Source: Halosolutus halophilus
GTDB lineage: Archaea > Halobacteriota > Halobacteria > Halobacteriales > Natrialbaceae
NCBI RefSeq assembly: GCF_022869805.1
Contig: NZ_CP094974.1
Span: 310,001-374,000, forward strand
DNA length: 64,000 nt
Direction: 5' to 3'
Shown: piece after piece, positions 36,158 through 39,532 of the stretch
How the letters are laid out: each line of letters opens with the position of its first letter
How positions within the stretch are numbered: the stretch's first letter is position 1
Program-made: the position numbers and the translations under genes
The notes under the pieces: generated by a model
Told to the model about the DNA's origin: nothing
What the model saw: only the letters and a program-made list of their open reading frames with translations
Databases searched by the model: none

Positions 36158-36295
36158 GGAACCGATCGGGGATTGTTCGTCGCTCCCGAAATGACTTATC
36201 TGACCGATAACCCTGAGACATCGAAAGAAAACCGGCGAAAACCGGCGACAAAACCTGACCGGTTGATAAACGGTCCCGACGACTATCCAGTCGCC

Positions 36296-36541
36296 ATGAG
36301 ACGACACGTAGTACTCGCGATCGTGGTCAGCATCGGGCTGCTCGTCGGAGCGGCCGGAACGGCAGCGGCAACGCCGGGGGAGGGTCCGCCGGACGACCTC
36401 CCGGAGCCGGTTCCCGACTTCGTTTCGGAGTTGCTCGGGGCTATCAGTAGCTTCGTCGACGGCGCGATCGACGCACTCGGTGGCGTCGTTTCCGAGAACA
36501 CGCCCGGGGCGGCCGCACTTCACGGTCCCGTGACGCCGTAA
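36296..36541 (+). CDS. Small secreted protein, function unknown
   Basis: I use the ATG at 36296, giving 81 residues: RRHVVLAIVVSIGLLVGAAG then TAAATPGEG is a Sec-type signal with an AxA-like cleavage site, followed by about 50 mature residues with an amphipathic helix (PDFVSELLGAISSFVDGAID). The upstream extension of the frame has low-complexity, AT-rich sequence and is not supported. It is the first of a run of exported proteins. No family recognised. Confidence 0.55.
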   Translation: MRRHVVLAIVVSIGLLVGAAGTAAATPGEGPPDDLPEPVPDFVSELLGAISSFVDGAIDALGGVVSENTPGAAALHGPVTP

Positions 36542-36731: not shown

Positions 36732-37862
36732 ATGACCGACCGTAACCCCCGATCGATCGTTCGGCTGCTGATCGTCGCTCTCGTGCTCTCGCTGGTCGTT
36801 TCCGGGCCGCTTTCGGTCGCCGGCGCGACCGCCAGTCAGCCGCAGGCACCGTCTCGCGCCGTCGAATCGCCGGACGGATTTTCGGCGAGTCCCGAAGACG
36901 TCGATCCGGACCAGGTCCGGATGAACGTCGCCCTGGCGGCCGACGGCTCCGCCGAGTGGACCGTGGAATTCTGGGTCGAACTCGACGACAACGAATCGAC
37001 GGAGGCCTTCGAGTCGGTCGCGACCGATATCGACGAGGATCCGGAGCCGTACCTGACGCGGTTTGCCGATCGGATCGATACGACGGTCGCCACGGCGAGC
37101 AACGCGACGGACCGGGAGATGTCGATCGACGGGTTCGCCGTCGAGACGGAACGGCAGTCGCTGGCCCGCGAGTACGGCATCATCAGGTACACGTTCGATT
37201 GGCGCGGGTTCGCCGTCGTGGACGGCACCGAACTGCGCGCCGGGGACGCGATCGAAGGATACTATCTCGACGACGGGACTCGGTTACTGGTTTCGTGGCC
37301 GGAGGAATACGAACTGACGAGCGCGAGCCCCGAACCGGACGCTCATCGAGAGAACGCGGTCATCTGGCGCGGGTCGCGGACGGATTTCGTCTCCGACGAG
37401 CCCCGTGTGGTCGTCTCGAGCGGGGGGGCGGGACCGTCGCTGTCGACGATCGCGCTCGGCGTCGCCGTTCTCGGAGTATTCGGACTCGGCGTCGCGGTGT
37501 GGTATCGCCGGCAGGGATCGGGCGGCGTTCCCGCTCCAGTTCCGGGCGGCAACGGCGACGACGGCGACGCAGCGGGCGGCGCGGCGACGGCCGATCGGGA
37601 CGCGGAAGCCGAACGGGCCGTTCCGGACGAGTTCCTGAGTAATGAAGAGCGCGTCCTCCGACTGCTCGAGGACCGCGGCGGCCGCATGAAACAACAGGAC
37701 GTCGTCTCGGAACTCGGCTGGACCGACGCGAAGACGAGCAAGGTCGTCAGCGGGTTGCGCGAGGAGGGAAAACTCGAGTCGTTCCGACTGGGTCGTGAGA
37801 ACGTGCTCACGCTTCCCGAGCAGCGAGACGCGGTGCTCGAGTTCGGGGAGCAACGCGACTGA
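36732..37862 (+). CDS. Membrane-anchored winged-helix regulator with extracellular sensor-like domain
   Basis: This 376-residue protein has a signal/anchor helix (RLLIVALVLSLVVSGPLSVAG), then an extracellular beta-domain of about 180 residues with the pattern VALAADGSAEWTVEFWVEL, YLTRFADRI and ATDREMSIDGFAVE, then a transmembrane helix (LSTIALGVAVLGVFGLGVAVW), a Gly/Ala/Asp-rich cytoplasmic linker and a C-terminal winged helix (EERVLRLLEDRGGRMKQQDV, then SELGWTDAKTSKVVSGLREE). From memory, haloarchaeal proteins of this plan are catalogued with DUF7345 and DUF7343 domains. The design implies signal sensing outside and DNA binding inside. The outer domain is shared with the PGF-CTERM protein at 38810. 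Confidence 0.8.
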   Translation: MTDRNPRSIVRLLIVALVLSLVVSGPLSVAGATASQPQAPSRAVESPDGFSASPEDVDPDQVRMNVALAADGSAEWTVEFWVELDDNESTEAFESVATDIDEDPEPYLTRFADRIDTTVATASNATDREMSIDGFAVETERQSLAREYGIIRYTFDWRGFAVVDGTELRAGDAIEGYYLDDGTRLLVSWPEEYELTSASPEPDAHRENAVIWRGSRTDFVSDEPRVVVSSGGAGPSLSTIALGVAVLGVFGLGVAVWYRRQGSGGVPAPVPGGNGDDGDAAGGAATADRDAEAERAVPDEFLSNEERVLRLLEDRGGRMKQQDVVSELGWTDAKTSKVVSGLREEGKLESFRLGRENVLTLPEQRDAVLEFGEQRD

Positions 37863-38039
37863 GGGGAGTCCCGCGATCGACGGGCAAACCAGCACGATCG
37901 CACGACGGCGACGGACCGTTTCGCCCAATTTACGACCGTTGCCGGCGCTCGACAACGGTGTCAAACGTCGTTAATAGTCGTTGAATCGGAGTGATAATCG
38001 ACCCTGTATATGGAGCGGTAGCTCCACGTCCCAATCGTC

Positions 38040-38807
38040 ATGAAGCGACCAACGACGATCGTACTTGCACTGCTACTCGCCGTCTCGATGGCGGCGGTGC
38101 CCCTCGCGGCTGCCGACGTCGGCGCGGCCGCGAACGCACAGGAACAGGACACCGAGGACGAGGACGTCGCACCCGGTGAACAACTGTCCGCCGTCGTCGG
38201 CGTTCAGGAGGCCGAACTGGACGGTGAACTCGCGGAGCGCACGTACGGGATCAAGGTCGCCTCCGCACAGACAGAGGACGCCAAAGCCGACGTCGTCCTG
38301 GAGCAGCAGGCCGACGTCGAGGAACGCATCGCGGACATCGAGAACCGCACCGAGGAACTGAACGCCTCCTACGAAGCCGGCGAAATCACACGCGGACAGT
38401 ACAAAGCCGAGATGGCCGCCGTCGCGGTGGAACAGAAGACGACCGAACGGCTGGCCAACGGTACGGTAGCGACCGCCGGCGAACTGGAGAGGCCCGAAGA
38501 GAACGGTATCGACGTCGAGGCGATTCAGATGCTCGCGGAAAACGCGAGCGAACTCGGCGGTCCGGAAGTCGCCGAAATCGCGACGTCGATCGCCGGTGAG
38601 GGCGTCGGTCAGCCGGTCGACGCGGATCGAGAGCCCGGCGCGCCGATCGAACTACCGGAAGCGGGTCCCGATGCGCCGGCTGACGACGCTTCGGACGTGG
38701 ATACGCCTGCGGACGACGACGAAACTGACGGCAACGAAACGAACGCCGAAGAGCCGGGATCCGAGGCCGGCAACGATGAGCCGACGAACGACGACGAGAA
38801 CCAGTAA
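38040..38807 (+). CDS. Secreted acidic protein with coiled-coil segment
   Basis: This 255-residue exported protein has a clear Sec signal (TTIVLALLLAVSMAAVPLAAA) and AxA-like cleavage. Residues from about 50 to 150 are helical: AVVGVQEAELDGELAERTYG, then VVLEQQADVEERIADIENRT, and the final third is Asp/Glu/Asn/Pro-rich and probably extended and disordered. A ribosome binding site is not obvious. Only two bases separate its TAA from the ATG of the next gene, so the pair is transcribed together. Possibly a member of the haloarchaeal DUF7096 group; this is from memory. Confidence 0.68.
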   Translation: MKRPTTIVLALLLAVSMAAVPLAAADVGAAANAQEQDTEDEDVAPGEQLSAVVGVQEAELDGELAERTYGIKVASAQTEDAKADVVLEQQADVEERIADIENRTEELNASYEAGEITRGQYKAEMAAVAVEQKTTERLANGTVATAGELERPEENGIDVEAIQMLAENASELGGPEVAEIATSIAGEGVGQPVDADREPGAPIELPEAGPDAPADDASDVDTPADDDETDGNETNAEEPGSEAGNDEPTNDDENQ

Positions 38808-38809
38808 GA

Positions 38810-39532
38810 ATGGGACGATGGATCGTCGCTTTCGGCGTGCTCGTCGTGCTCTCGGGGCTCCTGGTTTCACCGGTTTCAGGTGCCGGTGCGACGGCCAGCG
38901 ATCCCGCCGATACCGACGAACCCACGTTGCACGTCGAACTGACGGCCGACGGTGATGCCACCGTCTCGCTCGTCAGCGTGTACGACCTCACAGACGAGGA
39001 CGAGCGCGACGCGTTCGAGACGCTCGAATCCGACGACGAGACCCGCACAGAACTGCTCGATCGATTTACCGCTCGAATGCAGCCGGTCGCCGCGAACGCG
39101 AGCGACGACGTCGACCGCGAGATGACGGTTACGGCGGATTCGATCGACGTCCGCACGACGGACGACGATCGCGGCGTCGTCGTGCTCTCGGTGACCTGGG
39201 CGCAACTCGCGGCGGTCGAGGACGATCGGCTCGTCGTGACCGAGCCGTTCGCGAGCGGGTACGAGACCGATCGGACGGTCGTCGTCGCCGGGCCGGACGG
39301 GTCGACGATCGAGACTGCGACGCCGGAGCCTGACACCGAGTCGGACGGACAGGCGAGCTGGGACGCCGGGACCGAGTTCGACGGGTTCGAAGCGGCGTTC
39401 TCGCTGTCCGCCGAGGAGACCGGCGGCGACGAGACCGACGCCGCCGACGACTCGCTTCCCGGATTCGGCGTTCCGATAACGGCTGCGACCCTGCTCGCGC
39501 TGATCGGGATCGGAATCCGTCGCGACGAGTGA
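38810..39532 (+). CDS. PGF-CTERM surface protein with DUF7345-like domain
   Basis: This 240-residue protein has a signal peptide (WIVAFGVLVVLSGLLVSPVSG), an extracellular domain beginning LHVELTADGDATVSLVS, then LLDRFTARMQPVAANASDD and VDREMTVTADSIDV, and a C-terminal sorting signal LPGFGVPITAATLLALIGIG ending in basic residues. That PGF motif plus helix is the substrate for archaeosortase A, which exchanges it for a lipid anchor. The extracellular domain matches the sensor domain of the regulator at 36732, which suggests related ligands or direct pairing. It follows the coiled-coil protein by two bases. Confidence 0.78.
   Translation: MGRWIVAFGVLVVLSGLLVSPVSGAGATASDPADTDEPTLHVELTADGDATVSLVSVYDLTDEDERDAFETLESDDETRTELLDRFTARMQPVAANASDDVDREMTVTADSIDVRTTDDDRGVVVLSVTWAQLAAVEDDRLVVTEPFASGYETDRTVVVAGPDGSTIETATPEPDTESDGQASWDAGTEFDGFEAAFSLSAEETGGDETDAADDSLPGFGVPITAATLLALIGIGIRRDE

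Follow-up and report, generated by a model that had tools for sequence, protein, structure and literature searches.

A probable autoregulated surface-sensing circuit of haloarchaea, centred on a membrane-bound regulator with DUF7345 and DUF7343 domains

Introduction

ToxR and CadC are single proteins that sense the outside of the cell and bind DNA inside it; their cytoplasmic DNA-binding domain is N-terminal and they have no homologous surface partner. In BlaR1/MecR1 and RsgI the outer domain of the sensor is homologous to a secreted product under its control; these bacterial systems have folds other than those considered here and signal by proteolysis or through an anti-sigma factor. To our knowledge, archaeal surface sensing without two-component kinases is poorly understood, and work on membrane-bound regulators in archaea covers very few of them. 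Among these, ArnR and ArnR1 of Sulfolobus acidocaldarius come closest to the case described here; they are membrane-bound one-component regulators that act on surface-structure promoters and consist of an N-terminal HTH, a HAMP-like and sensor domain and two C-terminal TM helices (PMC6396743). In the response to envelope stress in E. coli, the CpxA-CpxP(-NlpE) system pairs a membrane sensor with a small secreted accessory protein (PMC4160245).

Here we describe a gene cassette from a 64,000-nucleotide stretch of the Halosolutus halophilus genome (the window; positions 310001-374000 of NZ_CP094974.1, a single 5.06-Mb contig, GCF_022869805.1), in which a gene for a membrane-spanning DNA-binding sensor, A, is flanked by genes encoding secreted proteins, D upstream and B-C downstream. 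Like ToxR and CadC, A has the build to sense outside and bind DNA inside, with a sensor domain unrelated to theirs. It resembles ArnR and ArnR1 in being a membrane-bound one-component regulator, and differs from them in its outer sensor, single TM helix, C-terminal winged helix and local, predicted secreted targets. The accessory protein of the Cpx system is a possible role model for B, as a functional analogy only and without homology; however, CpxA is a two-component histidine kinase whereas A carries the DNA-binding domain itself, and here, unlike in Cpx, the anchored partner C has the sensor's domain.

A belongs to the DUF7345 and DUF7343 proteins of Halobacteria, and C to DUF7345; these and DUF7096 are Pfam families without assigned function. 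Our literature search found no paper naming DUF7345 or DUF7343, and in the literature on membrane-bound haloarchaeal regulators neither the D-A-B-C cassette nor the arrays described below were found. No link of CsmR (PMC13286277) to the family of A was found in the literature searched, and CsmR was set aside as a relative. The cassette appears to be a variant of membrane-bound one-component regulation not previously described in the literature searched. It suggests a role for DUF7345, DUF7343 and DUF7096-like proteins, and with operator, targets and partners all predicted it offers a directly testable candidate circuit.

Results

Layout of the cassette

The four genes follow one another in the order D - A - B - C, all on the + strand. 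Positions are those of the window.

36296 to 36541, + strand: gene D, small secreted protein of 81 aa, ATG start, LPEPVPDFVSELLGAISSFVDGAIDALGGVVSENTPG
36732 to 37862, + strand: gene A, membrane-bound one-component regulator of 376 aa, PF24036 and PF24034 above cut-off
36912 to 37421, + strand: outer domain of A, DUF7345 with a C-terminal extension (residues 61-230; Pfam, hhalign, AF2)
37443 to 37514, + strand: transmembrane helix of A (residues about 238-261; hydropathy, AF2 helix 237-261)
37635 to 37817, + strand: cytoplasmic winged helix of A, DUF7343 (residues 302-362; recognition region WTDAKTSKVVSGL)
38040 to 38807, + strand: gene B, secreted, highly charged helical/coiled-coil protein whose N-terminus resembles DUF7096
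38810 to 39532, + strand: gene C, surface protein of 240 aa with DUF7345 and a PGFG-type tail
38924 to 39403, + strand: outer domain of C, DUF7345 (residues 39-198)
39458 to 39529, + strand: tail of C, PGFG, hydrophobic stretch and RR

A preliminary description of this DNA had presented A as a one-component membrane regulator with an outer domain, a transmembrane helix and a cytoplasmic winged helix, followed by a secreted coiled-coil protein two bases ahead of a surface protein; all the features that it named are present. Pfam, hydropathy and AF2 agree on the architecture of A. A signal-like helix precedes the outer domain, which is a member of DUF7345 (PF24036; 103 bits, cut-off 27.5), and the winged helix is a member of DUF7343 (PF24034; 100 bits, cut-off 27.6) with Foldseek matches to MarR, ArsR and Z-alpha winged helices (TMt up to 0.83). 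In the AF2 model of A the mean pLDDT is 80, with most of the outer and wHTH domains above 90. Outer sensor, TM helix and DNA-binding domain are thus in one chain, an architecture found five times in the window's genome. A PDB sequence search with A returned nothing credible.

B is secreted and coiled-coil-like, as had been described, and its stop is separated by 2 nt from the start of C in the window; at many other loci the B-C junction is an overlap of 1-4 nt or a gap of a few nt. Its match to DUF7096 (PF23379) scores 20 bits, below the cut-off of 27, and covers positions 1-48 of the 208 in the profile; 20 of 33 B1 proteins match DUF7096 at E<=0.01. By this profile evidence B is DUF7096-like and not a DUF7096 member. 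Matches of B and C to VbhA, CdvA and DksA were weak, reflecting coiled coil or composition only, and were rejected.

The small secreted gene D, 5' of A, was absent from the preliminary description. Its homologues carry the motif LPxxVPDxVSxxxxxIxxFxxGxxxxLGxxVSxxTP and adjoin A at most type-1 Natrialbaceae loci, with C present or absent; in some genomes D is doubled (L135, L136, L172). When the D model was iterated, it also matched L035, L128, L142 and B, but so weakly that these matches were discarded.

C has a signal-like helix and had been labelled a PGF-CTERM protein, a label that holds better for its orthologues than for the copy in the window. The latter scores 14 bits against TIGR04126 (PGF-CTERM), below the curated cut-off of 24.5, although its tail has the PGFG-hydrophobic-RR layout; TIGR04126 is matched by 29 of 46 C proteins (best E 1e-9). 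PGF occurs in 33 of 48 C tails, the remainder being hydrophobic only, and for those 33 proteins lipid anchoring is plausible from the tail sequence.

An outer domain common to A and C

The outer domain had been proposed to be common to A and C from a series of motifs, all of which are found in both proteins (LAADGSA/LTADGDA, LTRFADR/LDRFTAR, ATASNATDREM/ANASDDVDREM and YGIIRYTFDW/RGVVVLSVTW, A before C). C is a member of DUF7345 in its own right (77 bits, cut-off 27.5), as are all 46 C proteins of 46, and BLASTP aligns A with C at E 2e-15 with 28% identity across 187 aa. Given one profile of 43 sensors and another of 46 C proteins, hhalign returned a probability of 99.9 and E 5e-35; this profile-profile alignment spans residues 57-265 of A and 33-249 of C and so extends well past the Pfam domain. 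When the predicted structures were compared by element order, the AF2 models had 13 secondary-structure elements in identical order in A (61-230) and C (39-198), with pLDDT mostly >90, and the two outer-domain models share largely the same weak structural neighbours in Foldseek. On these comparisons a resemblance through chance is ruled out.

The two domains have nevertheless kept different features. At the same position A has an invariant 'GDxxxG' loop and C an invariant 'EPF', which argues that C is not a plain decoy copy of A. In a tree of 102 DUF7345 domains A and C separate at one branch (support 100/98), and the split, as read from this tree, is an ancient duplication. Loci with A and without C are nested among C-bearing A loci, so that C has probably been lost several times.

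No confident fold match for the outer domain was obtained in the Foldseek structure search. The Fenna-Matthews-Olson protein headed the list with E about 1e-6, but its hits are meaningless at TM 0.15-0.25 and rmsd 14-17 A; LppM 2nc8 (TMt 0.39) and, with TMt up to 0.46, PA4063/ZrgA were rejected as too weak. DUF4897 is weakly matched by 28 of 46 C proteins (best 3.5e-8) and DUF2207 by three, a hint that these outer domains form part of a larger superfamily.

Distribution of the cassette

The sequence of C served as query across 81 genomes of the family (Natrialbaceae) and 194 of the class, and the neighbourhoods of the hits were then read; a single-protein search with A gave 13 named loci. The cassette is present in several haloarchaeal families. 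Among 48 C loci in Halobacteria, A is adjacent at 36 and B is close by at 45, so the order A-B-C is kept well beyond the window. Two layouts recur: in type 1, as in the window, A>B>C are co-directional, and in type 2 A is divergent from B>C. Nine C loci have no A nearby and three have neither A nor B; C-type DUF7345 proteins adjoined by neither gene are encoded at L116, L140 and L141. A type-1 A occurs in 31 of the 81 family genomes, including every one of the 14 with a type-1 C (Fisher p 1.5e-7), and A and C clearly do co-occur. From this conservation A-B-C is a real conserved module.

B, and not C, is the constant element. All 19 of the type-1 A loci without C that were examined retain B, and the divergence of A correlates more closely with that of B (r 0.94) than with that of C (r 0.80), with 0 of 2000 permutations in the test of these correlations; shared descent adds to both values. 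We therefore take A-B to be the core, and C an ancient yet dispensable duplicate of the sensor domain. The sensor paralogues at L037 and L038 are without B.

Tandem 10-bp arrays upstream of D and B

Two promoter arrays, both absent from the preliminary description, precede genes of the cassette.

36221 to 36258, + strand: operator-like array 5' of D, A-runs about every 10 bp, GAAAGAAAACCGGCGAAAACCGGCGACAAAACC
37954 to 38011, + strand: operator-like array and TATA box 5' of B (model R1 match; periodicity)

The B array has 10-bp units GTCAAACGTC, GTTAATAGTC and GTTGAATCGG at 37960-37989, with the TATA box at 38005-38011, and the D array is followed by a TATA-like GTTGATAAAC at 36262-36271. Upstream of B at 61 loci, the best-window self-identity at lag 10 is 0.548; the figure for 255 control upstreams is 0.384 (z 18.7). 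Neither lags 5-9 nor lags 12-16 show an increase, and lag 11 shows only a slight one. When 25 type-1 operators are aligned, A7, A17, A27 and A37 are invariant, directly 5' of the TATA box. The array at L066 has one additional 10-bp unit, and the longest arrays lie in the A-B gaps of L122 and L126, with at least six units of the TCCAGAACAG type in exact 10-bp steps. The A-B gap of the window also holds an inverted repeat seen by eye, ACCGTTG-N-CAACGGT, while the comparative signal there is of direct 10-bp repeats.

A sequence-only model of the operator, R1, which includes the TATA positions, was built from type-1 operators without those of the window's genus. Scanned against the 5.06-Mb genome, it found 37954-38011 as the sole significant site (37.8 bits, E 6e-9; the next has E 0.11). 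Of the 81 family genomes, 31 carry a type-1 A, and 29 of these have a site at E <= 1e-5; the 50 genomes that lack type-1 A have no site at this level (p 6e-20). Sites are also found at B-C operons far from A, at L072 (E 6e-5) and L082 (E 2e-10), where A is about 1-1.8 Mb away, as would be expected if A acts in trans. The D promoters show self-similarity of 0.548 at lag 10 and 0.487 at lag 11, compared with 0.384 for control upstreams, a phasing also read from an alignment of 28 D promoters. The B-trained model itself detects the D promoter in two genomes (G014, G062) and has a weak match (E 0.006) directly 5' of the D gene in a third (G046).

The core word of the array varies with the recognition region of A. 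The AKTSK class (25 loci) goes with TTRAAM/GAAAAM, about two per promoter, AKTSQ (6 loci) with TTRATY, SASKTSR (13 loci) with GCAAAY, and SKSK-SR (SKSKTSR; 7 loci) with GCAAC or AGAAC/GGAAC, so that the table of helix class against core word is nearly block-diagonal (off-diagonal counts 0-0.46). Since the helix classes coincide with clades, and the core words were grouped only once the sequences had been inspected, this covariation is strong rather than decisive evidence that A binds the array, and may partly reflect shared ancestry. Such helix/operator pairs could show how DUF7343 winged helices read DNA.

Discussion

With domain homology, conserved order, arrays, single-site specificity, co-occurrence and helix/operator covariation all observed, we consider it probable on balance that the cassette is an autoregulated surface-sensing circuit of haloarchaea. 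From the comparative sequence evidence A very likely controls D and B-C through the arrays. In the mechanism that we propose, A would sense a surface condition through its outer DUF7345 domain, and its winged helix would, either in place or after cleavage, bind the tandem 10-bp half-sites, one per DNA turn and just 5' of the basal promoters that serve D and the B-C operon, with several A molecules probably side by side on one DNA face. In haloarchaeal promoters a position 5' of the TATA box favours activation, and the placement of the arrays suggests that A activates rather than represses, its predicted targets being almost solely neighbouring genes for secreted proteins. We infer that the products of B, D and C act back on A at the outer side. 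B, as the constant partner, would be the likeliest direct ligand or accessory of DUF7345, and C, an anchored copy of the domain, would bind B or the same stimulus and so set the level at which A switches.

The outer half of this scheme is put forward more tentatively than the control of the promoters. Binding of B to the DUF7345 domains of both A and C is a possibility that we regard with some reserve. Similarly guarded is the full picture, that of a winged-helix sensor aligned on 10-bp half-sites, switching on hardly any genes but those of its own extracellular partners, and self-tuned via an anchored domain duplicate and a secreted bridging protein. If true, it would be a new archaeal signalling design, in which a sensor is tuned by an anchored duplicate of its own domain.

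The neighbours presumed to be regulated are all secreted or anchored, B is a helical protein of high charge, and B and C nearly always lie translationally close to each other. Together with the arrays, these features would also fit an envelope-assembly checkpoint at which A monitors unassembled or misfolded B, C and D surface subunits, in a Cpx-like manner, and matches their synthesis to need. However, B and D have no homology to structural proteins and the conserved core contains no export or assembly genes, and we judge this reading unlikely.

According to a further proposal, C is the direct counterpart of A, competing for or presenting a shared external ligand, and B is incidental. As regards C, this was the model of the preliminary description, whose one-component architecture and conserved gene order stand; the partnership with C, and with it competition or presentation, found no support. 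The two proteins do share a domain and adjoining genes, C is confined to genomes with A, and the A-C distances correlate (r 0.80). But C is dispensable, 19 type-1 A loci keeping B in its absence, the A-B correlation is higher (0.94), the invariant loops of A and C differ, and the DUF7345 tree has one ancient split with no later matching seen. C as the counterpart of A is consequently rather improbable, and B is the better candidate for the partner.

Shed D and/or B could instead stimulate A and autoinduce their own genes, as a means of cell-density or self-recognition. D and B are small secreted proteins, array promoters lie on both sides of A, and D is doubled in some genomes, but neither a processing site nor a release mechanism was seen and the arrays fit self-stimulation and feedback inhibition alike, which leaves this explanation very doubtful. 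As little can be said for the arrays being phased A-tracts that curve DNA and strengthen secreted-protein promoters in no connection with A: A-runs every 10 bp are able to bend DNA, and a plain scan for AA phasing confined to the window did not exceed shuffles, but the strict co-occurrence with type-1 A (29 of 31 genomes versus 0 of 50), the single site in the window's genome, the shift of core word with the recognition helix and the lack of phasing in control upstreams all argue against it.

The genome of H. halophilus also holds related genes in several states. DUF7345 is found above cut-off seven times, five of them in sensors that also carry DUF7343 and the other two in C proteins, and DUF7096-type B proteins three times, each adjoining a DUF7345 gene. 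The sensor gene at 3.80 Mb and a full DUF7096 gene are divergently oriented, and two sensors stand alone. A second B-C pair lies at 4.67 Mb (L034 3947-6901, G000:C1), where the divergent sensor is a short DUF7345-like remnant (21 bits). At 0.27 Mb (L036 3170-5106, G000:C1) an intact type-2 sensor lacks C, has beside it a damaged remnant of B with 203 aa, and adjoins acyl-CoA synthetase and SDR genes, as at L078. Short proteins with a hydrophobic stretch and DUF7343, lacking the DUF7345 outer domain, are encoded at L039 (3623-4090) and L040 (2737-3384) and are possible sensor-less relatives of A.
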